A stretch of DNA of 64,000 nt from Colius striatus (taxonomy: Eukaryota; Chordata; Aves; Coliiformes; Coliidae), in NCBI RefSeq assembly GCF_028858725.1, contig NC_084774.1, positions 11,196,001-11,260,000 on the forward strand, given 5' to 3'. Made by a program: the position numbers and the translations under genes. This document shows, piece after piece, positions 13,028 through 56,100 of this stretch; within the stretch, counting starts at the first letter, position 1; each line of letters begins with the position of its first letter. The notes beneath the pieces were generated by a model. It ran no database searches, was not told where the DNA came from, and worked only from the letters and a program-made list of their open reading frames with translations.

Positions 13028-19887
<6,860 letters not shown>

Positions 19888-29800: not shown

Positions 29801-32800
29801 GAATCTCCTTGTTGAACACATCTGTTCCCTCAAACACCAACTTTTCCAGCAGCCTGCATAAACAGTTTTGTTTACATCAAGCTGTGAAGGTAAATACCAC
29901 AGACCAGCTGGAATGCAGAATCCTACTCCAAAACCCAGGACTTCCCCACAGTGCTGTACTGACATATCCCACTTCCCTCCCCAGCCCCTGTAAGCATTCA
30001 GCTGGAGACAACTGTCACTGTAGCAGACCACAGGAGAGGCCCCCGAAACCACAGAGGGAAAGTCTTAGAAAGCTTTGGAGCTCAAATTTGCACCTTTGGT
30101 TTGATATATTTATTACACAGATAGAAGAAAAGTTTTACCAATGTCAAGAATTTCCTATTAAAGTTCCTTCTACTCCATGCCACTGGTTTTATGATTAACA
30201 TGCCACTGCTTACAAAGCAACATCTTAGTGATAAAACTAAAAACTCAATGCCTACCAAAGCTTTACTGAGTCCCAGCTGTCAGAACAGGTACTAACCAGT
30301 GGTGGTACACACTAGTCCCAGCTGTCAGAACAGGTACTAACCAGTGGTGGTACACACTAGTCCCAGCTGTCAGAACAGGTACTAACCAGTGGTGGTACAC
30401 ACTAGTCCCAGCTGTCAGAACAGGTACTAACCAGTGGTGGTACACACTAGTCCCAGCTGTCAGAACAGGTACTAACCAGTGGTGGTACACACTAGTCCCA
30501 GCTGTCAGAACAGGTACTAACCAGTGGTGGTACACACTAGTCTCAGCTGTCAGAACAGGTACTAACCAGTGATGTTATACACTAGAGTGGAAAAAAGGCT
30601 GCATTTGACTTATGTGGCAGCTACCAGGTAGAAGCATAAATTAATTTGAGCCATTAAATAGGAAGTTAGACTCAGACTTACAAAGGTTGTTAGTGAAGGA
30701 AAATAGGTAACAGTTACATCAGACTGACAGATGAAAGCTTGAAATGGGCTTGAGAACAAGCATGGTCTACCTACACAGACATTTTGACCACAAGTTGCAG
30801 AAGCTCATTGAATTTACTAGTTGTTTTCTGTCTTTGTGAAGCTTTACCAGTTCGGATAAGAATCAGTACATGCTGGTTTGATGTGTGCTTTCTGGCAACA
30901 CAAGCATTCTATGTTGGATCTGCATTAATTGCTTCTAACAGGTTACTACAGAACTACTCAACCTCTGCCAGGACATATCACAATTCCTGCAGTGCCTGTG
31001 GTGAGATGCCAGCCTGTTGTCACTCCCACTGCACAACTGGAAAGCTACAGGCACAGACAATCCTGTCACACGGGCCACAGGGGACCAGAGGGCACTACAG
31101 CTTCCCCAGAAAGAGGGCAGCAAAAAGTAGATTCACTCGAGCCCTGTGTGCACTGCTTGTAACTTACTAGGAGCACTGATGGTTGTAGACTCATCAATAG
31201 TTCTGAGATGAAAAATATATCCAGATGGTTTCCTCAATCAGGCAGCAGCCTTCACTTCTGTTCAGCAAGCCCATGAGCTCACGAGGAACAGAAAGCTCCA
31301 GGTCAATGACAAACTTCATCCCTATCACATGGATGGTGGTTAGCACCTCTGCTTACACCTAACTGGAAGCGAATCTTAACAGGTGCAAGGACAAGCTCCC
31401 ACTTCCTCTGAATGACTGTCTTCCATTAGTTCCTGGGGTGTAAGCACCTCTCCAAGTTATTTTAGATCTCCAGCTGCTGTTGAGTCACATTACAGTTGTA
31501 ACCTAGTCACCTAGAAACAGATGATAAACTAAAGGCAAGGCTTATGGCCTTTTACACCAGAACCATATCACTGATTTTGCTGCTCGAGATTAGATTGTTA
31601 CAGCACACAGCTCATGGCAAGACACACTAAAGCTATCCAGGACTACTGATGAATCCCATGGCTAGCTTGGAGAACTTCTCTGAGAACCAGGATCAGCCTG
31701 TCAGCTTCCACATGGAGAACCACATGGCCACAAAGCCCACAAATGGCCAGGCAGCCTCTTAGTTGGCTGGTCCCAAGATTTCCAACCAAAAAGATGGAAA
31801 TGTATGTCTTTGTTGCAGTGAGGGTATCTGAGAGGGCTCTAGGGTTTGAGCACACCTGTCCCTGTATTTTAAGGGTGTTACAGTTTCTGTCACATCACAA
31901 AGTACAGCTAAGCTTCTGCAGAGGTCTTGAAGGGCTGTCTCCCATGAAGAGTTACAGTGACCATTGCTCACAGATGAAAAGGAAATCAATCCCACTCCGT
32001 GCTGCAGCTAGTGTTCTACAACACAGTTGGTACACATGTGCAGGGCTCTATTGGGTTAGACCTTTGAACAGTCGGGAAACATAACAAGGGTGACTGGATG
32101 TCTGGAAAGCAGAGCTTACATGGATATTTCTTGTTCAAAAGCTTTAGTTTCTTCAGACTCCTACAGAAGGGGGACTAAGTTTCTTGTGTTCACTGCCAAC
32201 AGAACAGCAACAGGCTTAAGCTTCCTTTGTTTGCCATTTAAGTTCAGCATCTAACAAGACAGGCAACTTTCTTGCAGTGCATAATTAAGGACATAGAAAC
32301 TCCTTATCCAGTGTTTAAGACATTGTGCATGTATCAAAATATAACAGGAATCAAATAGAAATCAATTCAAGTCAGCCCTGTTTCAAGTAAGAGGCTGAAC
32401 TGGATTCATTCCTGAGGTCTCTTTGAACTCTTTTTTCTATCACTTGGATAATATAAGCCAAGAGAACAGAACTTACATTACATACTGAAGTTCTGAGCCA
32501 TGAACAGTACGATCTAGGCCTTAGTAACAACTTATTTGCTCTCCTGACAACTTCAGCTGTACATCAGGAATACATGGTTCTTCTAATCCTTCAGAGATCA
32601 AGTGTTTTAAACCACTGTCCCCCACAAAGCACAGGGTTGACACTGCTGTCACTGACAACAATGTTATTGCTATGTTCATAAATCTGACACTAATTTTGAT
32701 ATCAATTATCTAACTTTTAGCCCTGAGCTAAAGTGAAAAGCAGAGCTTTGTACCAAGAAGTTGATAGAGTAGCACTTTAAGTGGGGAAAACCGTATTGTC

Positions 32801-38300: not shown

Positions 38301-41300
38301 CCTCTTTCTTTTTTTTCTCAGTTTTGAGTCTACGCCTCAGACATTTCCATTTTGACATCTTTCATTCCACCCCCATATATCAAACTTAAAGTCAATTTAA
38401 CTCCTGGATTTAAATGAAATATTTTATAAAATGCCATAGTTTTAGGCTTGTGTGGGATTGGCTCTCTTAATTAGTACCTCGACTGTGTAATTTAGTGGAA
38501 CTTGCATAAATCTGCATTATTCGGCTGCATTTCTCAGCAGTCGAAGTGCGTTACAAAGGCAAGACCAGATACATTTTACCAACAAGGATGCAATGACAGG
38601 CACCTTGAATTTCTTATCCAGACCCACAAAGTTTGTGAGTGTCAAAGCAAGATCACCATTTGGGCATTGCTGTCTATTTCAGTGCTCTAACTGTGTCAAA
38701 TACTGATATAAAAGGAGAGGATGTTTGCATGAATGTGGCTGAAAACATATTTTGTACAGATGTGCAGTATTTGTAAGGTATAGTGTCAGTATCTGAGACT
38801 AAGCTTTAGCTATAGAGATTTTAAAAGAAGCATTTTGAATTACCTACTAGATTTAACAGGCTCTTAATCTATACTTTTTAACCAGCTTTGTTATAAATAG
38901 TCACATTAAAATAGTGCATCTTCATTTTCTTTCTCCATGCATGCAGTGCATACCACTTTTCATACTGTAGTTGGTTTACTCTTTTCCCTGCTAAATCAGT
39001 CATTGTCTACATGGCAAGACAGTTCTTTGCTCTAATATAAAACGAGAATTTCTGTTTGTATTTGTGAAAATCCAATGGCAAAATTACCAAAAAATGCTGG
39101 AGATTTTTTTTCTGTTTCTGTAGCATTTCCATGTGGAAGGTTCAAATTACCATGTGGGGATTCAAAATACCAGTCAGACTTCTGAATTCTTCATTTTTTT
39201 TTCTGATAGGTTCAATATATCTATTTCAATTTATGGGATAAGCCAACAGTGCTGGTCTGACCTGCCTAGTTTTTGCCGTTTGTACCTCATGAATCTGCAG
39301 GGCCTACTTATGAAAGTTGTGTTTGACTACCTGAACCTATAGAGGTTAGAAGTCATTGGGCCACTTTTAATGCAACAGAATAAGAAGGGAACATATATTT
39401 ACTTACTTTTATAAACTGAAGGATCTTGGACATGCATAACATCTCATTCGAGTGAGCTCAGATTGCTATTCCAGACTTTTTCACACTCACATCAGTTCAC
39501 TCCAGTGTCTATTCCATGAGCTGTGAAAATGAGATGCAGAAAACACACTCAGTACTAGAACTGAGACCAAGAACACACCCCAAAATCCTCCCTGCTGCTG
39601 CAGTTCATTTCATCGTTGAAGCAGGGGGGAATGGAGCAGTTAGAGAAGTGAGAATACCTTTTATACTGAGGGTATTCTGAGTCACAAATGGCAACATGAA
39701 GTTATCCTGACTAACTAGGTGGTGATTTACTCATGGATGTGGAAGCTGCATATAATTTAAGAGATCCTTTCATGAAGGGTAGCAAACGGATAATGTATGT
39801 GATACAACTTAAAAAACGTTGACAGAGCTGAAGTTTGCAGTTTGGTCACAAAAATCAAAGGATGAAGTCTTACAAGCCAGACCTAGATTCTAAAAAAGGT
39901 GTTTAGGCATTTCCCATTCAAATGAGTAAGATTCAGACCTAAGTTTAGAAATAATTAGGGCATAAAGAGAGATAGTTGTCTATCTAGGACAGTGGGGAGC
40001 ACTAAACACAGCCTAAAATACAAACTTCTATTAGGAATCTCTGAATGTTTTGGGGTGGGTTTTTTTTTTGCTGCATAGGCTGCTTTTTCTTCACTAGCGT
40101 TGTGCTGAAGTGAGCTGCAAGCCTTTGTGTATCCTTTTCACAGATGCACTGATGGGAGGGGATGGGAGGAAAGCAGGATTTCATAAAGTTTTTTCAGGCA
40201 TGAAGTGAGCAAAAGGTGAAGAGCATGCTGAAAGGTAAATAGAAAATAATAAATGAGAATGGAGGCAAAAAATTGTCTTTGAGGGATTAAATGCTGCAGA
40301 GAATTAGTCTGCAAATAAAGATTCTGAAGGGTTTTAGGTTAATGCATTAACTGGGGTAATAAAAAGCTGTGTATTTAGCTTCATGTCCAACTTTCCAAGA
40401 GGCTGAAGAGCTGCAGTGATAACCAATGATCTAAAACCACTTCTAAACTGAAGAGTCTGAGTTACAACTAGACTATCACAACTGACCTACTTGGTACACT
40501 TGATGGTACTCTCCATGGAGAGACTGAGGAGCAGATGGGAGTACAGCCTGATTACATTACTTTTTGGACAGTCTTTTCAGAAAAATATCATGTTTTGGAG
40601 AGGACAAGTTGTATTCACTGTATACTGCAGACCCCTGGATGCTGCAGCCTAGCACATTCCACCCTTTGCTGTACAGAAATCTGTCTTTACTAACTGGGCT
40701 TGGCAAAAATTCCAGAAGGCTGGATAGCAGGGTTTCTCTAAGAGCTCCTCCTTGTCTCTCTGTATTTCTTTCTCTCTCTACAAATTATTGAACACATTCA
40801 GGCTATCAGTATTGAGCACTATTTCATTGGTATTGAGGCTTGAATGGGGTTGAACCAAGACCCTGCTGCCTGGTTCTTGTTAGTGCAAATCAAATCATAG
40901 CACAACACACATCACTGGGCTGAGAATACAGAGCAAAGAGCTCCTTTATTAGGTGGTTTAACTCAGAGACCTCATTTGCATTAATTCTCTCTAGTGGACT
41001 CTGTTCTTGAGCCAAAGAAATGAATCTCCCTTTACTCACCTGTTTTACAAATGACTGGTAGATTCTGCTTCTGTCTGTCCAGCTAGGTAACAGATCGTTT
41101 TACCTGGACTCGGCAGTACGCTGTGCTTTCCCTGCATAACATCTGCTGCAGTTTTCATAGCTTGAATTGTTCTTGGCCTTGTTTTAAAAGGCAACTCTCA
41201 GAAATGTCTTTGAGGATGTGAATTCTTAGTAATTGTTTTATCTGCTGGGGTTTTCTTCATTTATGTTTGTTATTTGACTTTTTAAAATAAGACTAAACAG

Positions 41301-48499: not shown

Positions 48500-49751
48500 T
48501 TATGACGGTTGCTCAATAAGGTCAAAGTGCAGCTCCCTACTGTAAGGCCGGCGCCCAACAGACACAGCCACCTGCGGCCAGCGCCTGCCTGAGCCCCGTC
48601 GCGGCCCTCCAGGCACCTCTGGGGCTCCGAGCCGAAACCCGGCGCGATGGGGCCGTGGCTGCAGCAGCTCCCTGCCGAGCACCGTTTGGCAGACGCACAG
48701 CTCTCCCCCCCAAGGGTTAAGCGGCAGCGGGGGTGTAACGCACGCTGACACACGCGCGGGGATCGTCCCCAGCGCGGCGAGGCCCCCGCCTCGCAGCGCC
48801 GGGCTCGGAGCTGCGACTGGACCGTTTAAAACCGTGATCTCCCTCTCTTTTCTTTCCCCCCTCCCCTCTAGTCTTTCCCCTTTTCCCTTCCCAGCGCGGA
48901 AATCGCAGCCGCCCTCCCCGCTCGGCCGCGCTTTCCAGGGGCTCGCCTCAACCCCTCCACCGCGAGCCCGGAATGCTGAGTCAGGCTGCTCAGGCCGCGG
49001 AGACAAGGCTGCGGAGACTGCGCCTGGCACACAACGGCGGCGGCACCCGCCCCCGCGGCCCGGCTGGCGGGACCGTTCCCCGCCCCGGCCGCACTGAGGG
49101 GCTGCGGCCCCCGGCCGCTCGGGCGGGCAGCGCGCCGGGGCAAGCCCGCCTCTGGCAACGGCAGAGGGAGGCACGGGGGCCGGCGCGCTCCTCCTCACCC
49201 GCTGCCCCCGCCCGGGGCTGGGCGTGGGGCCCGGCCCCCCCGCCCCGCCGCTGCCGGTGGATCAGTTACACGCAGCTGGCACAGGTGTGGGGCGCCCTTC
49301 AGACTCGCGCCGGCCGGGGAAGACCCGGACGCAGGGAGCAGCAGGGAAACGTGCAGCCATTTTGGGCCGAGGCAGACAAAGGGCCGCGGCCGCCAAGGCC
49401 GTTCCGCCGCCCGCCCGCACGGCCGCGGCCTCGCGGGCGCCCACAGCCGTGACCCTGCGCCCCGCGCCGCCCGTTTGCCCCCGTCCCACCCCCGGCCGCC
49501 GCGGCACCGCCGAGCCGCTGCCGCCCGACTCCCAACTAAGCGCTCGCAGCCATTTGCCCTGCCTTTTATAGGCGGCCGCCGGCCAATCAGCGGCGGGCGG
49601 AATCCCTCTCCGGCCGGTGATGTGAGGCTGGGCGCGCGCGCCTGCGCCATGGCGGCGGCCGAGAGTGTGTGTGGGGTGGGGGGAGGGAGGGAGGAGTGAA
49701 AGGGGAGGGGGGGGAGGAGGGAGCAGCTCACAGGAACCCTCCAAAAAAAAG
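48500..49751 (+). promoter_or_regulatory. TAF4 CpG-island promoter and 5' UTR
   Basis: A CpG island of roughly 1.5 kb (to about 50100) leads to the TAF4 ATG. A TATA-like TTTTATAG lies at about 49563-49570 and a CCAAT box (GGCCAATCAG) at 49581-49590. The start of transcription probably falls between about 49590 and 49640. Long antisense open frames here reflect GC content only. Confidence 0.7.
49649..49699 (+). CDS. Upstream ORF (16 codons) in the TAF4 5' leader
   Basis: ATG in an excellent context (GCGCCATGGCG) opens MAAAESVCGVGGGREE and stops at TGA 49697-49699, 52 nt before the TAF4 start. It would be translated only if transcription begins upstream of 49649. It is out of frame with TAF4 (offset 103 nt). 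Confidence 0.45.
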   Translation: MAAAESVCGVGGGREE

Positions 49752-49759
49752 ATGGCGGC
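49749..49759 (+). promoter_or_regulatory. YY1-type element overlapping the TAF4 start codon
   Basis: AAGATGGCGGC matches the YY1 consensus and contains the initiator ATG. YY1 sites of this kind often lie just downstream of transcription starts. Binding is inferred. Confidence 0.5.
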
Positions 49760-50067
49760 GGGCTCGGATCTGCTGGATGAGGTTTTCCTGAACACGGAGG
49801 TGGATGAGAAGGTGGTGAGCGACCTGGTGGGCTCCCTGGAGTCCCAGCTGGCGGCCTCCGGCCACCACCACCAGCACCACAAGGCGCAGGAGCCCCTGAG
49901 GGCCGCTGGGGGGCTGCTGGGGAACCATGTTGTGAGCAGCAGCAGTAGCAGCAGCAGCCCTAGCCCTAGCCCTGGAGGAGTAGTAGTAGGAGGCAATGCT
50001 AATGCCCAAACAGAGAGCAGCAGCAGCAGCAAGATGGGACTGAGTGCCCCAGAGATCACAAAAGCAG
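49752..50067 (+). CDS. TAF4: TAF4 exon 1 (residues 1-105)
   Basis: Starts at the YY1-overlapping ATG. It contains a GHHHQHHK patch, a run of Ser codons with SPSPSPGG, then SAPEITKA plus one base. Donor GTAACA, phase 1. Confidence 0.93.
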
Positions 50068-53000
50068 GTAACATGGGCAGGGGTGGGGGGCTCTGAGGGA
50101 GAGGGGCCCTCCCCTCCCCCCACTCCCCAGCTCCGGCTGCCTCCTTCCCTCACTGCTTTCCCCCCTTTTCCCTCTCTCCTCCTTCTCGTTGTGGCAGGAG
50201 CGGGAGTGCAAAGGGTGGTATCGATCATATGGGGGAGAGCCTCCCCTCATCATGCCCCCTCGGTGTGTATCCGCGCCTCTGCTCCCTCCCCTTTATTTTC
50301 CCTCCTCGCTTCTGCTTACGAGAGGGTGTTTTAGCATGTGTGGGGGCAGCTTTCTCGCAGAATAAGCCGGCAGTGTCCCTCCGTGACTCTGCCGGTCCCC
50401 TCTTCTTTTCCTGCCCTTGTTGCTGGAGTGTAAAAAGGGCTCTCTTAATCTCGGGGGCTGAGGGAGGCAGAGCCCACCCCCCTTGGTAATGGCTGTGCCT
50501 CCTGTGCCGTCTGTGACTGCTCCCCTTCCCTTTCCAGGGGTGGAGGTTATGGGGGGGATTCCCTCTTGATAATGCCGTCTTAGCTGTCTGTGTAAATGCT
50601 CCTTCCCCTCCCCCTTCTCTGTTGCTGAAGTGCAAGGGGGTGTTATTAATCATGACACCTATTTCCTGTAGAGGAGGAAGCGAGGGGGGATTTCAAGGGG
50701 AGGAAGTCCCTCAAAATGCTTCTCCCCCATATCTGCCTGCCTGGATATTCTCTCCCCTCCTTCCTCCCTTGTTCCTGGGGCTTGGAGGGGGCATCCAACA
50801 CCTCTCATTCCTCCGCTGCCCTCAAGGGGGGGTTGTCACAACACCAGGTCCCGGGAAGGGGGGGAATTCAGGCCACAACACCCCACCTTGTACAATGTCT
50901 TCTCCCACCCACCCCCCCAGTAGCTACCTGGGAATATTCCCCTTCTTCGTCTTGTGAAGATTGTAGGGGAGCAGAGAGAAGGCTGGGGCTAAGGACTCAC
51001 TGCATGGGAATGGAGGGAAGCTGTTTTTCAGGGAAATTAAAAAAAAATGTCTCCCCAGAATCTGTCTGCAATTCCTCCCCTCCCCCTCCTTTTTTTCCTT
51101 TCATTCTTGTTGCTGAAGGGTAAGAAGATATTACAGACCTTCTGTTATGATTAATGAAGCCCTTCTAGGAGGATCTCCTTAACCCTTATAACATGCATTT
51201 CAGTATCTGTCTGTCACTATTCTTTTTCCCATTTCTGTCTCCTTAGGGCCAGGACCTGGACTGTGTGTGATTGTACTTGTGATAACACCAGGCCTCAACA
51301 AGGGGCATGAGGATTATTCAGGACAAGAAGCTACATCGTCTTGTCCCTTCTCAAAACCAGCTTTGCCTTTTATTTATTTATTTTGTAACTGTCTCTGACT
51401 GTGGGAACTTCAGATCCAGAAGAACAAATTCTGTGATAAAGCGGAGGGGGTCTTCTGGTAACCTGCTCCAGGCCTTACAGTGCTTCTTATCTTGCCAGGC
51501 CAATGTTCTTCTTTCCTTTTGCTTTTTCACATTTTGCTGTTGTTGAGCCTCCTGATCTAACTGACTTACTCTGTAGGAGATGAAAGGATTAGAGGGTAAC
51601 GTGTGCTGGGCATAGGGAATATGTCTTATTAACATGTCTTCCATTGCCATTTTTCCCTCCATGCAGTTGCAGCCTTGTTGCTACATGTGTTATCGGGCTC
51701 TAGAGTGGGGAAGAGGTCTAAGGTGACTTTCCCTCCTCCCTTCCCTTGGTTCATATCAAATCTGTTTTCCCTATTTTGTCTTACTGTAGTGGTGAAAGCA
51801 GGGGTGTTACAATTGATATTAAATCTGCCAGTCTTTGGTGGGAAATCAGAGGCCTCAAGGTAATGTTTTCAAAGCCATCTTCAGTTTGTGCTCTGTCTTG
51901 TTTCCCTGACTCTGGGCAGGCAGCCTGGGAGATGGAGAAGACTTGGTGATGAGGGAGAACGTTGTGTCTTCGCTGGACTTCTCTCCTTACTACTTCTCTC
52001 TGTTTAACCTTGTTGTTGTTTTGCAGGAGCAGGAGTGCAAGGGGGTGTTATTAATCATAACACCAGGTCCCAGACTTCAGCTCTGGATGGAGCCACTACA
52101 ACGAGCACCAGCACCACCACTGCAGCAGCAGGAGGATCTGAAGTCACTGCTGCTCCAGGGACCCTCAATCAGGGCAAATCGGTGGTTATCAGCACCATGG
52201 CAACTGCCTTGTCCACCAGGAATGGCAAGATTGGGACCACAACAGTGCAAACTTTGAATGGGAGTAATGTGGTGATGAACTCTCACCATACAGGAAGTGC
52301 TGCTTTCTCTGGGACTCCTGTGACAGCTAACCCTGCTTCTGCACCTGCTGTGGCCCCTCTCGTTAACAATGGACCTGGATCTGTGGGGAAAGGAAATACT
52401 GTTAATGCTGTTTTGCCATCAGCTTCCAACACTGTCATCCAGACTTCTTTCCTTAATACTGCTGTGTCTTCTGCATCTTCCTCCTCGCCCACAGTTATCT
52501 CTTCACAGCCACCACCAAGCATTGGAACTGGCGCATCCACAGTAACGCTTGTAAGGCCACCGATTCACACAGCAGGACCCACAGTAGCTGCAGCTGGTGC
52601 AGCCACGCAAAACGGGAGCAATACTGTGATCAATTCAACCATCAGTGTGGGGAGTTTTTCTGCTGTTGCTACAGCCACTGTGGGATCTGGAGTTTCCCTC
52701 CAGACATCGCTTGTGAACAGCCAGTCTGGTTCTACTGTGCCAGCAGCTCCTGCCACACAGGTGATCAAATCTGAGTCTCCTAAAACTATAGTCCAGGCAG
52801 TATCCCAACAGCAGACAATGGCTACTGGTGGCCAGCCCAGTACTACAGGGGGTAACATGATTATTGGGCAAACTATGCAAGCTGGGCTCTCCAATGTTGC
52901 TCCCAATCCTGGTGGGATACCTCCTGCGGCTCCGGGCACCCCCACAGGAATGGCTAAAGGCACTGCCAATACAGTGGCACAAAGTCTGCCAAGGACTCCA

Positions 53001-53112
53001 ACAGCAACGACAAGTGGAATCAGAGCAACTTTGACTCCTACAGTTTTAGCACCTCGTTTGCCTCAACCACCTCAGAATCCAACTAACATTCAGAATTTTC
53101 AGTTACCACCAG
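49752..53112 (+). CDS. TAF4: TAF4, TFIID subunit; exons 1 and 2 only, remainder beyond the window
   Basis: Core TFIID subunit that pairs with TAF12 and acts as a coactivator surface in the nucleus. Two coding exons join in frame (49752-50067 and 52027-53112) to give 467 codons plus one base. The N-terminus MAAGSDLLDEVFLNTEVDEK and VVSDLVGSLESQLAAS is diagnostic. A His-rich patch, Ser runs and an Ala/Thr/Ser/Pro/Val-rich linker follow. Then come TQVIKSESPKTIVQAV and RTPTATTSGIRATLTPTVLA, ending at NIQNFQLPPG. The TAFH domain and the C-terminal histone fold lie in exons to the right. The mammalian N-terminus as I recall it is far richer in Pro and Ala. TAF4 is chosen over TAF4B by its neighbour LSM14B and the long N-terminus. 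Confidence 0.96.
50068..52026 (+). other. TAF4 intron 1, carrying repeated exon-boundary modules
   Basis: A GT-AG intron of 1959 bp. It is C/T-rich and contains several degenerate copies of the sequence surrounding its own 3' end, at about 50198, 50411, 50622, 50822, 51107, 51265 and 51790. Confidence 0.8.
50160..51310 (+). repeat. Degenerate tandem array of roughly 200-bp modules resembling the exon 2 acceptor
   Basis: Each module has a pyrimidine tract, GTTG(CTG/TGG) and an AG, then a GAGTGCAAGGGGG-like core followed by TTATTAATCAT-like text. Starts at about 50198, 50411, 50622 and 50822 give spacings of 213, 211 and 200 bp; weaker copies follow. Segment 50630-50659 matches exon 2 at 52035-52064 in 29 of 30 bases. 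AACACCAGGTCCC occurs at both 50840-50852 and 52059-52071. Confidence 0.75.
52027..53112 (+). CDS. TAF4: TAF4 exon 2 (residues 106-467)
   Basis: After GTTTTGCAG the exon reads GAGVQGGVINHNTRSQTSAL and 362 codons in all, ending CCACCAG before GTAAGTAAG (phase 1). The first part is Thr/Ser/Ala-rich. The segments AQSLPRTPTATTSGIRATLT and LPQPPQNPTNIQNFQLPPG at the end are strongly conserved in TAF4. Confidence 0.95.
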
Positions 53113-56100
53113 GTAAGTAAGAGGATTGAAGGGTTTTGTTTCCTTAAGTACATTTCTTGCAGAGAGGAAGGGATCCAAGTAAGGTTTCTTTCTGTTTAGT
53201 TGCGAATTGTGGAAAAAGCATTACACTTAACAATGAGAATCATCTGGTTTTCAGTAGTAACATAGTAGCATTCTTAGCATGCTTAGTGTACTACTTCGGG
53301 TGACCAAAAAGTCTTTTCAGCAGTAATAATTAGAAGATAATTTTGCCTGGTATTTTTGTTACAATGTGAATGTAAATGAAGCTTCAAACTACCAAAGCAT
53401 GACAATGGAATATTATCAAATGAAGTGTTACTGTTTTATTTTCATGTAAGGCATGTTGACTCTTAAGGTGGTTTTGTCAGTAGTTCGTCTAACCATCGTG
53501 TGCTGTTCGGTTCCCTCTCTGTCCCTGCATGCCCCCAGTACCACAGAGCGCTCGGGAATAGAGAAGCAGCAGATACAACACAAGAAAACTACCTTCTTTT
53601 GCTTTAAATGTCTTCAAAGTGTGACTTTAGAACTCACAGATTTGAAGCTTATGATTGTCTTTTTAGTCACTGGAGTTCTGATACAAAAGGCAGTCTTCTT
53701 ATGTCCTTACCTCACCCTGTTGTGTCTAGGGTTGCAGCTTTTGTAGTAGCTAGTCTCGTGCTTAGTGCTGAGCATCTCTGGACAAGGAATCTAGTCCTGA
53801 GCTCAGTGGGTGAGTAAAAAGCAGGATGAGGAGCATTTCATTTCTGAGAAGTGTTCTGTTCCTCCTAAATTTTGCAGTTCAAGGTTATATGTTTGTTGTT
53901 ATTTTGAATCAAGCCTGTACTTGTATCCAGTTTCATTTTAAACTGATAATAGTTGTTGGAACATACAAGTTTCCGTCTTTTTAATGATGTATAGTAATAG
54001 CTATATTCTTCCTGGTCATTATTTTCAGGGCTGTATACAAAAAGAAACTAGTTAAGTTTTTCTGCTAGTGACAAATGAAATCAGTGGAGGTTGTATGTCA
54101 TCTATTTCAGTTGGTCATAGTATAAATATATCTGTTGAAGCTCCTAACCAATCTTAAAGCAATGTACCTGTTTTGTAAGGTAGATCAGAAACAATACTCT
54201 CTTGCTACACACTGCCTTTTTTGCGTGAGACACTGTCTATGGGATTGTAGTTTGATGTAGTCTGTCAAACATTCTGTGTATCAAAGTTAACAGGCATGAC
54301 TGTTCCCTCTTCTTTGGTCTAGATTATTCCCTATATGAGTAATTTGATTAACCCATGTTACTTATTTTAAAAAATGGCAGGAAAAACTCAAACCTTGAAA
54401 TCCCAGTGCTTGATTTGAAGCCTGGAAATTGATAGGCTGGAAAAGCCTTATTTATTTATATATTGCTACAGTGTATCAAAGGATTTTTCAGCTTTACAGT
54501 CTATTGCCGTGTATACCTACATTTTCATTAATACTGCATTATAAAACTGATTATGGGAAAAATACCACTGTTGAGCCCAGTGGGACCTTTTTTCCAGGTA
54601 GCTGATATTTTCAAACTGCCATAGCATACTGAAATGTGCTACTCCTGGAAGCAACATTGCCAGTCCTTAAGCATAATTGGACCATAAATTACTCCTTTGG
54701 AGGTCTCGATAGATCAAAGTAAAACAGCATAGGTCCTAAACACTTGAAGTTTTTTATTAAGCATTTTATTTTTCTTGTCTGTCCTACACTTTAAAAATAT
54801 TTATAACTTCAAAAGAATGGCATGACTCTTAAAATAAGCAAGTATACATGACTGAATACATGGAAATTGGAAATTGGGTTCTTGCTTGATGACAGACTTA
54901 ATATTGGAAAGGGTTTATTTTTGTGGAACAGACTTTTTTATAAATTGCTTTGGTTTACATCTATATACTTTGTGAAAGCAGCCAACTTTGAAAATGTTTT
55001 GCATAGAACATTTCTTACAGAACACTTAAGAACTGATGGATGTTGAGCTCTTGCAAACATCTCACAGGTGCAAGGGCTAAGCACCCTGAAAGTCCAGCCA
55101 CACGCAACTGCTTCAGTGTTTAGTAGAGTGCCTGTACATTCATAGTGAAAGGAGAGTAGAAGACTGTGCTTTTGAAATTGTATTTTGAAATACAGCATCA
55201 TAGGCCAGATTTTTAAAGGCAGATGGGTAGTTTGAAGCTGAAACTGCAGCGCTTGTATGCTGTGTATCTACTGCATGCATCAAATTTGCATTCACAAGTT
55301 TGTTTTTAAAAGTTAGTACTATGTGCTAATAAGAGTTTGTAAGACTTAGCGCACAACAGAGCTTGAGATCATGTACTGCACATTTTGGTTTTTACACCAA
55401 GATTTACAAACACTTAGAAAATTCATATGGAAGGTTTGACCAATAAGTAAATGTGTTTTGTTGTTATTTTCTTACCTTGAATTACTAGCTCTCCAATACA
55501 TAGTTAGAGTTTCATGTGTGTGGAAAGCTGAATATAAAATGTCAGTAAGTGTTATTAACCTGGGACTTGAAAATTAGAAACCTTGGAAGGTTTCAAATGT
55601 TGTCTTAAAAAGAGCATGTGGAGAATAAGTTTGATCAATGCTCTTTAATATGTGTGACTTTTAGAATAATGCTTTGTATTGCATCAAGACAATCGTGCAG
55701 CAAACTTTGACCAAATTAGAAATGTGTGAAATGGGCTGTAGTTGTTGTGACATTACTGGATTCTGGTATATTGTTTCTCAAACAAACTGGACTATTCAAA
55801 GTATCTGTGCATTAATAGTGGCTTTCCATTACTGACATCCGTGAGGAAGTATTGCACTTAGACTTTTCTTCAGGAGCCTGTGTTTGGGACTTTGTGGTCT
55901 AATTGGACAGATCCGGTTAATGAAGGTTCAAAAATAAAACCTTATTTATAGCTTCTTAGCAGAGATGTGAAAATATTGTCTGATGGCTTTCCAGGGGGAG
56001 AGAACACAATTTTCTCTATATAATGCTGCTTTAAAGATGCAACATCTTTCGAAATTGTGACCGAATGTAGTTTATTTCTGAATACTTCAAGCAGTAATGT

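Follow-up and report, generated by a model that had tools for sequence, protein, structure and literature searches.

The window analysed is a 64,000-nucleotide stretch of the Colius striatus genome (contig C18, positions 11,196,001-11,260,000), the genome comprising 1,212,370,026 bases in 191 contigs. Contig C18 has a length of 17,800,485 bases and, at 17.8 Mb, is too long for a dot chromosome. The beginning of the TAF4 gene is found on the plus strand of the window and includes the coding part of exon 1 (49752-50067, read from its ATG and ending CAG|GT), a GT-AG intron 1 (50068-52026), and exon 2, the 3' end of which lies at 53112 with GTAAGT directly after it. The borders of exon 1, intron 1, and exon 2 are predictions from reading frame and splice consensus. 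The protein read from the joined exons is TAF4, and their joined translation matches human TAF4 from the PDB (E=9.2e-42, residues 1-468). Human and other mammalian TAF4 genes have a single exon here, with the mammalian exon 1 covering both sides of the intron. GC content is 0.507 in intron 1 and 0.531 in the repeat array that it contains. The start of intron 1, 50068-50183, is rich in C/G runs and carries motifs of quadruplex type, one at 50075 on the plus strand and one at 50107 on the minus strand; a further motif of this type occurs at 50904 on the minus strand.

TAF4 intron 1 carries a diverged array of repeats arranged head to tail. Candidate units, 90-156 nt in length, were cut by eye and scored by leave-one-out, wherein the profile is made from the remaining units, re-aligned without the tested unit, and the score is set against those of 300 shuffles that keep composition in 20-nt blocks. 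Seven of the 11 pieces, together covering the region 50184-51237, outscore all 300 of their local shuffles: u1 (50184-50309; 12.6 bits), u2 (50416-50529, with the TTGTTGCTGGAGTG... core), u2b (50530-50619), u3 (50620-50770), u4 (50811-50949), u4b (50950-51105), and u5 (51106-51237), all on the plus strand. Window-wide E-values from the same profiles are at most 0.0033 for u1, u2, u3, u4, and u4b (3.7e-9 for u3), 0.028 for u2b, and 0.044 for u5; when u1 is the unit left out, the top-scoring site beyond the intron follows closely, at E=0.0094. The same seven units are also recognised by a second model (R1) built on another alignment. Unit u1b (50310-50415, plus strand) is possible yet weak, with nine of 300 shuffles as high in leave-one-out and two of 300 with the profile of the seven strong units.

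The preliminary description of this intron, made from its letters alone, had placed copies near 50198, 50411, 50622, 50822, and 51107; these are u1 through u5, supported by the profiles, while u2b and u4b were absent from its list. The copies it placed near 51265 and 51790 hold up in part. The first is u6 (51238-51385, plus strand), a probable unit, similar to u4 (0/120 shuffles as high) and less clearly to the start of exon 2 (1/120), but missed by the profiles. The second is u7 (51782-51900, plus strand), a doubtful unit: no shuffle is as high in its pairwise comparisons with u3 and with the exon 2 start (0/120 each), but both scores barely exceed the shuffle maximum and the profiles miss it also. 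Neither u6 nor u7 has a match or a shuffle-test score in the leave-one-out profiles. The 200-213 bp spacing reported for the first copies spans two units, the unit itself being about 90-156 nt. A unit of 200 nt was considered and set aside; pairwise z-scores of longer segments are mixed, ranging from -0.4 to 7.6 over 28 pairs, and 90-156 nt fits better.

Mean column identity across the alignment of the seven units is 47%. Tandem Repeats Finder, the kind of program earlier suggested as a check, gives no row for it even at score 30, only short unrelated ones, and the array is thus old or strongly diverged. A self-comparison, also suggested earlier, gives mixed counts. The region 50068-52075 yields 9 self-matches at 18/24, well above its 30 shuffles (mean 1.3, maximum 4), but among other windows (31 tiled over the 64 kb) one reached 8 and another 6, and window 50001-52008, which ends before exon 2, has only 5, as in two others. 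Self-match counts alone are a weak test of the array.

The unit core is similar to the start of exon 2, namely its first 45 nt (52027-52071, plus strand). The match of 29 of 30 bases already noted between 50630-50659 and 52035-52064 is exact and extends to 30 of 31 (50629-50659 and 52034-52064). With 53 nt of exon 2 as the query (52028-52080, without the pyrimidine tract) and both strands of the 64 kb as the target, its own place excluded, the best four places all fall in intron 1. Their scores are 57, 33, 31, and 30, the last of these for a minus-strand match, and no other part of the window scores above 27. As a control, 1500 random 53-mers were compared with their own upstream 2 kb and 8 reach 57, six of which, by position, fall within the 45-bp tandem repeat at about 30.3 kb and the remaining two within the TAF4 locus. 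The exon 2 start has three independent plus-strand matches of at least 28, and three or more are found for one of 400 controls.

Pairwise comparison with the exon 2 start gives the highest score to u3 (60), followed by u1 (39; 26 of 31 aligned bases) and u4 (38.5; 27 of 30 aligned bases with a 4-nt gap), and for each of these none of 120 shuffles is as high; for u2, 4 of 120 are. Throughout the pairwise screen 17 of 153 segment pairs have no shuffle as high among 120, where about one would be expected by chance. The pairs u7/51880-52026 and 51666-51780/u7 were dropped as artefacts of overlapping segments. Two other pairs at 0/120, u1 with the exon 2 body and exon 1 with the exon 2 body, are taken as the noise level.

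The profile of the seven strong units, made from intronic sequence, finds exon 2 at 52029-52068 (E=2.2e-4, 0/300 shuffles), and its next place outside the intron and exon 2 is at E=2.9. It finds nothing in exon 1, 50040-50183, 51531-51780, 51880-52026, or the exon 2 body. As this profile detects no unit within 51531-52026, the array is not continuous up to exon 2, and the pyrimidine tract that had been counted as part of the repeated module lies in a stretch (51880-52026) with no detectable unit homology. When weak units are included in the profile, the exon 2 piece (63 nt) reaches only E=2.6 in leave-one-out and has no shuffle-test score, and it is preceded by 40722-40778, outside the intron, at E=0.028; a control region here, 40690-40800, beats its own 300 shuffles, but with only 2.7 bits. 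Model R1 does not find exon 2 at E<=10. It matches the C/G-rich intron start on both strands (minus, E=1.8e-4; plus, E=0.0042), and because of this an E-value near 1e-4 is not decisive alone, the minus-strand match in particular being evidence that composition can reach the level of the exon 2 match. The link between the array and exon 2 rests mainly on the pairwise matches, with the seven-unit profile in support.

Copies and exon 2 have in common 30-45 exonic nt, plus GCAG in one copy. Unit u1 keeps the first 33 nt of exon 2 with GCAG in front (AG at 50196-50197), and 50194-50215 agrees with exon 2 52023-52044 at 20 of 22 nt. Unit u3 keeps the middle 31 nt of the exon 2 start, and u4 keeps CAAGGGGG and AACACCAGGTCCC of exon 2 on either side of its 4-nt gap. 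The exon 2 copy holds all of the parts kept singly by u1, u3, and u4, a distribution that may fit a source kept by coding selection with copies decaying separately. A CAG acceptor homologous to that of exon 2 is found among the copies in u1 alone, with u2, u3, and u5 having no CAG; the complete boundary of tract, AG, and exon start once ascribed to each copy is therefore not borne out. The GTTG-CTG motif, likewise ascribed to every copy, is indeed present as GTTGCTG at the junction in u2, u3, and u5, but only there.

The 30-of-31 identity between u3 and exon 2 ends abruptly at both sides although the units are otherwise strongly diverged. On the ungapped diagonal, 29 of 30 matching bases are adjoined by tens with 5/10 and 4/10, and with identity dropping in the neighbouring tens the match is a short island. 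This island could have arisen by a later short conversion or template switch involving exon 2 and u3. A separate peculiarity is seen in the second half of u5, where 51113-51161 has an inverted likeness to the exon 2 core on the minus strand (18/20 nt, score 30, compared with 27 for the next-best place elsewhere in the window), as though the palindromic core had been inverted at its own site.

The original proposal, a tandem amplification at this site that took in the exon 2 edge, is borne out by the leave-one-out, profile, pairwise, and 53-nt query tests. Overall the observations of the preliminary description are partly confirmed and its interpretation is partly supported.

DNA searches place the array at one site in its own genome: queries of 121, 1127, and 871 bases from the region, run against all 1.21 Gb, retrieve the locus itself and no other. 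Given this single occurrence nothing points to a transposon, in agreement with the earlier remark that the repeats belonged to no familiar transposon; the search skips very common words and thus weighs against a dispersed element without fully excluding it. Rfam gives five matches within 49500-53500, all far below their gathering scores and none near a curated cut-off, and Pfam has no match for three frames (two intron frames and exon 2). An exact 25-nt pattern has no match in bacterial/archaeal contigs, viral contigs, or plasmids, as expected. Among the literature matches listed, none concerns this TAF4 repeat as judged by title and start of abstract, and literature searches on duplicated splice acceptors, or on intronic minisatellites with splice terms, found none.

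Additional information about the array can be garnered from comparison with exon stuttering, described in chicken in 2026 by Hron et al. (Hron et al. 2026, PMC12954441) as the copying of exon edges into neighbouring introns. The ranges reported there are 20-187 nt for the exon part (median 36), 1-44 copies (median 4), and a span of 112-23,555 bp (median 1,751). Like these, the TAF4 array is comprised of local, imperfect, direct tandems of a coding-exon edge in the intron next to it, and at least one of the copies also carries sequence from the nearby splice site. Its exon part of 31-45 nt, its seven or more units, and its span of about 1.9 kb are all in the published ranges, and the exon frame is open. 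The screen given by Hron et al. uses blastn-short with no dust, matches of at least 20 nt, and a threshold of 42.1 bits (PMC12954441). With these settings TAF4 intron 1 yields one match to exon 2, of 31 nt and in u3, which at 54.0 bits lies above the published cut; none of 200 shuffles of the intron goes above 32.2 bits, and comparisons of exon 2 with 30 other windows stay at or below 22.3. This BLASTn match starts 7 nt inside exon 2, the profile match starts 2 nt inside, and the match of u1 begins at the first base of exon 2.

Several properties set the TAF4 array apart. Copies in the published example differ by less than 20% from their consensus (PMC12954441), whereas the TAF4 units, at 47% column identity, are strongly diverged and only one copy passes the bit-score threshold. 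Stuttering introns are described by Hron et al. as heavily covered by simple repeats, a property not placed among the three main features (PMC12954441); the TAF4 array has no tandem-repeat coverage and moderate GC. According to the same paper, 190 of 236 stuttering introns are on dot chromosomes and 46 are off them, and G-quadruplexes are one suggested cause (PMC12954441). Unlike this preference, the TAF4 array is on a 17.8-Mb contig. The second main feature is extensive length variation between individuals (PMC12954441), and the divergence of the TAF4 copies suggests an array that is now stable. The abstract of the paper terms the stuttering events evolutionarily recent, and its discussion states that outside birds stuttering was not found apart from gerbil genes (PMC12954441). 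TAF4 has no occurrence in the main text; the list of 115 genes is in the supplement (Fig. S5) and may include it (PMC12954441). On this comparison the array may be filed, provisionally, as a decayed member of exon stuttering.

The array is best read as a probable remnant of exon stuttering. On this reading, a copy of the sequence where intron 1 meets exon 2, comprising about 45 nt of the exon and at times the final bases of the intron, would have entered intron 1 within a larger unit of about 90-156 nt. Local tandem duplication, whether by replication slippage, template switching, or unequal exchange, would have turned this unit into a head-to-tail row. With their acceptor disabled, the inner units could have multiplied without harm. 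The intronic copies would then have decayed, while the exon 2 copy was kept by coding selection. That copying ran from the exon into the intron, how the units were duplicated, and in what order the events took place are all inferred, and the array would now be without function beyond a few acceptor-like sites.

A stronger form of the stuttering reading is that of a fossil: stuttering ran and then stopped in a moderate-GC gene off the dot chromosomes, and its copies are now at roughly half identity. This form is put forward tentatively and is rather doubtful at present. Were it true, stuttering would not be only a recent instability of dot chromosomes, and many bird introns may hold relics of exon edges that have escaped notice, since tandem-repeat finders miss them. 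In its boldest version stuttering would have built TAF4 intron 1. Events of this kind are already described, and stuttering would gain time depth from a case that is old and decayed and lies on a larger chromosome. Profiles made from exon edges, instead of tandem-repeat finders, would offer a route to further cases, and the locus itself would be a natural test of an exon edge copied many times upstream of itself.

The main rival to a stuttering relic, although itself unlikely, reverses the direction. An intronic minisatellite would have come first, and its last copy would have been exonised as the 3' splice site moved upstream, such that about 15 TAF4 codons (AGVQGGVINHNTRSQ) would derive from the repeat. 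Consistent with this, the profile match stops inside exon 2, some 45 nt past the splice site, with nothing in the exon body, and the low-complexity stretch of human TAF4 has no recognisable counterpart of these residues. The human stretch, however, aligns poorly throughout, flanks included, and for this reason absence in human says little. An exon copy that holds all the parts of the single intronic copies fits an old coding source equally well, and the exon body also has a pair with u1 at 0/120 shuffles, taken as noise. Minisatellite-like expansion that alters introns and exons has a parallel in human segmental duplications, where internal tandem repeats are reported to change gene structure (PMC2812944). 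The events in that report are recent with units averaging 30 bp (PMC2812944), and those of TAF4 are old with units of about 90-156 nt.

Splicing signals bear on a further alternative, in which the copies would be kept as decoy acceptors, as alternative or poison exons, or as RNA hairpins regulating exon 2 inclusion; on present evidence this is improbable. Scored with approximate matrices, the exon 2 acceptor reaches 11.3 and is exceeded at 51246 (11.4) and by the AG ending at 50537 in u2b (14.0), the strongest acceptor-like site of intron 1. Six further intron sites reach a score of 8, giving eight in all besides that of exon 2. Acceptor-like sites above 8 occur at 4.66 per kb (that of exon 2 included) versus 2.45 per kb on the plus strand in the rest of the window, and exon-like acceptor-donor pairs at 4.56 versus 2.14-3.15 per kb. 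Nine predicted acceptor-donor pairs could bound an exon, seven with a length that is not a multiple of three and two with one that is. These predicted sites could act as working parts, but the excess is small and would be anticipated where pyrimidines abound, the matrices are approximate, and u2, u3, and u5 are among the copies with no homologous CAG. Within the first 45 nt of exon 2 is a perfect hairpin, GGTGTTAT-TAATC-ATAACACC, whose fold has a z of -2.81 (2 of 200 shuffles as good), and the hairpin is kept in u3 with a z of -1.80 (16 of 200). Against a role for the hairpin, the remaining seven of the nine cores folded are no more stable than their shuffles (z of -0.43 to +0.32). The idea that a conserved hairpin accounts for the repeats was rejected, as of the nine cores only those of exon 2 and u3 fold noticeably better.

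It is quite improbable that the intron was born by tandem duplication in a once longer first exon, the duplication giving both splice sites and further duplication then lengthening the new intron. The mammalian gene, in which exon 1 covers both sides, agrees with such a birth, and the core can yield donor-like sites (51120, score 8.8). Exon 1, however, has no unit homology, and the seven-unit profile finds none specific at the 5' splice site; the matches of model R1 at the 5' end of the intron fall on both strands in C/G-rich sequence. A precedent is the potato RdRp gene, in which a tandem duplication across an intron-exon border is reported to have made an intron (PMC4974935). In potato as in TAF4, the duplicated piece takes in the end of intron 1 together with the beginning of exon 2 (PMC4974935). 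The potato event as described is one recent duplication with ten differences between its copies and a new intron with RNA-seq support (PMC4974935), unlike the many old copies within one intron of TAF4, where there is no sign of a new intron.

A transposon or its remains, or merely similar base composition, is very improbable: recurring pyrimidine-rich tracts raise similarity, the control region 40690-40800 outscores its shuffles at its 2.7 bits, and model R1 matches the C/G-rich intron start on both strands, but the DNA search places the array at a single locus in the genome, the two intron frames have no Pfam match, and the pyrimidine tracts are not involved in the exon-core matches.

Other repeats are found elsewhere in the window. 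A short ATTCTATG-type repeat lies at 15482-15502, the sole site found with at most one mismatch; the type resembles the tail of CR1 retrotransposons, and another CR1 pattern has no match. A 39-bp tandem duplication with 90% matches is present at 18140-18218. The 45-bp repeat near 30.3 kb consists of seven copies (30269-30585) in the region of a minus-strand gene that we take to be LSM14B, and there is no clear source for it elsewhere in the window, the longest exact match being 12 nt. Its copies match at 98%, and thus the repeat is probably recent and is a candidate length-variable repeat.
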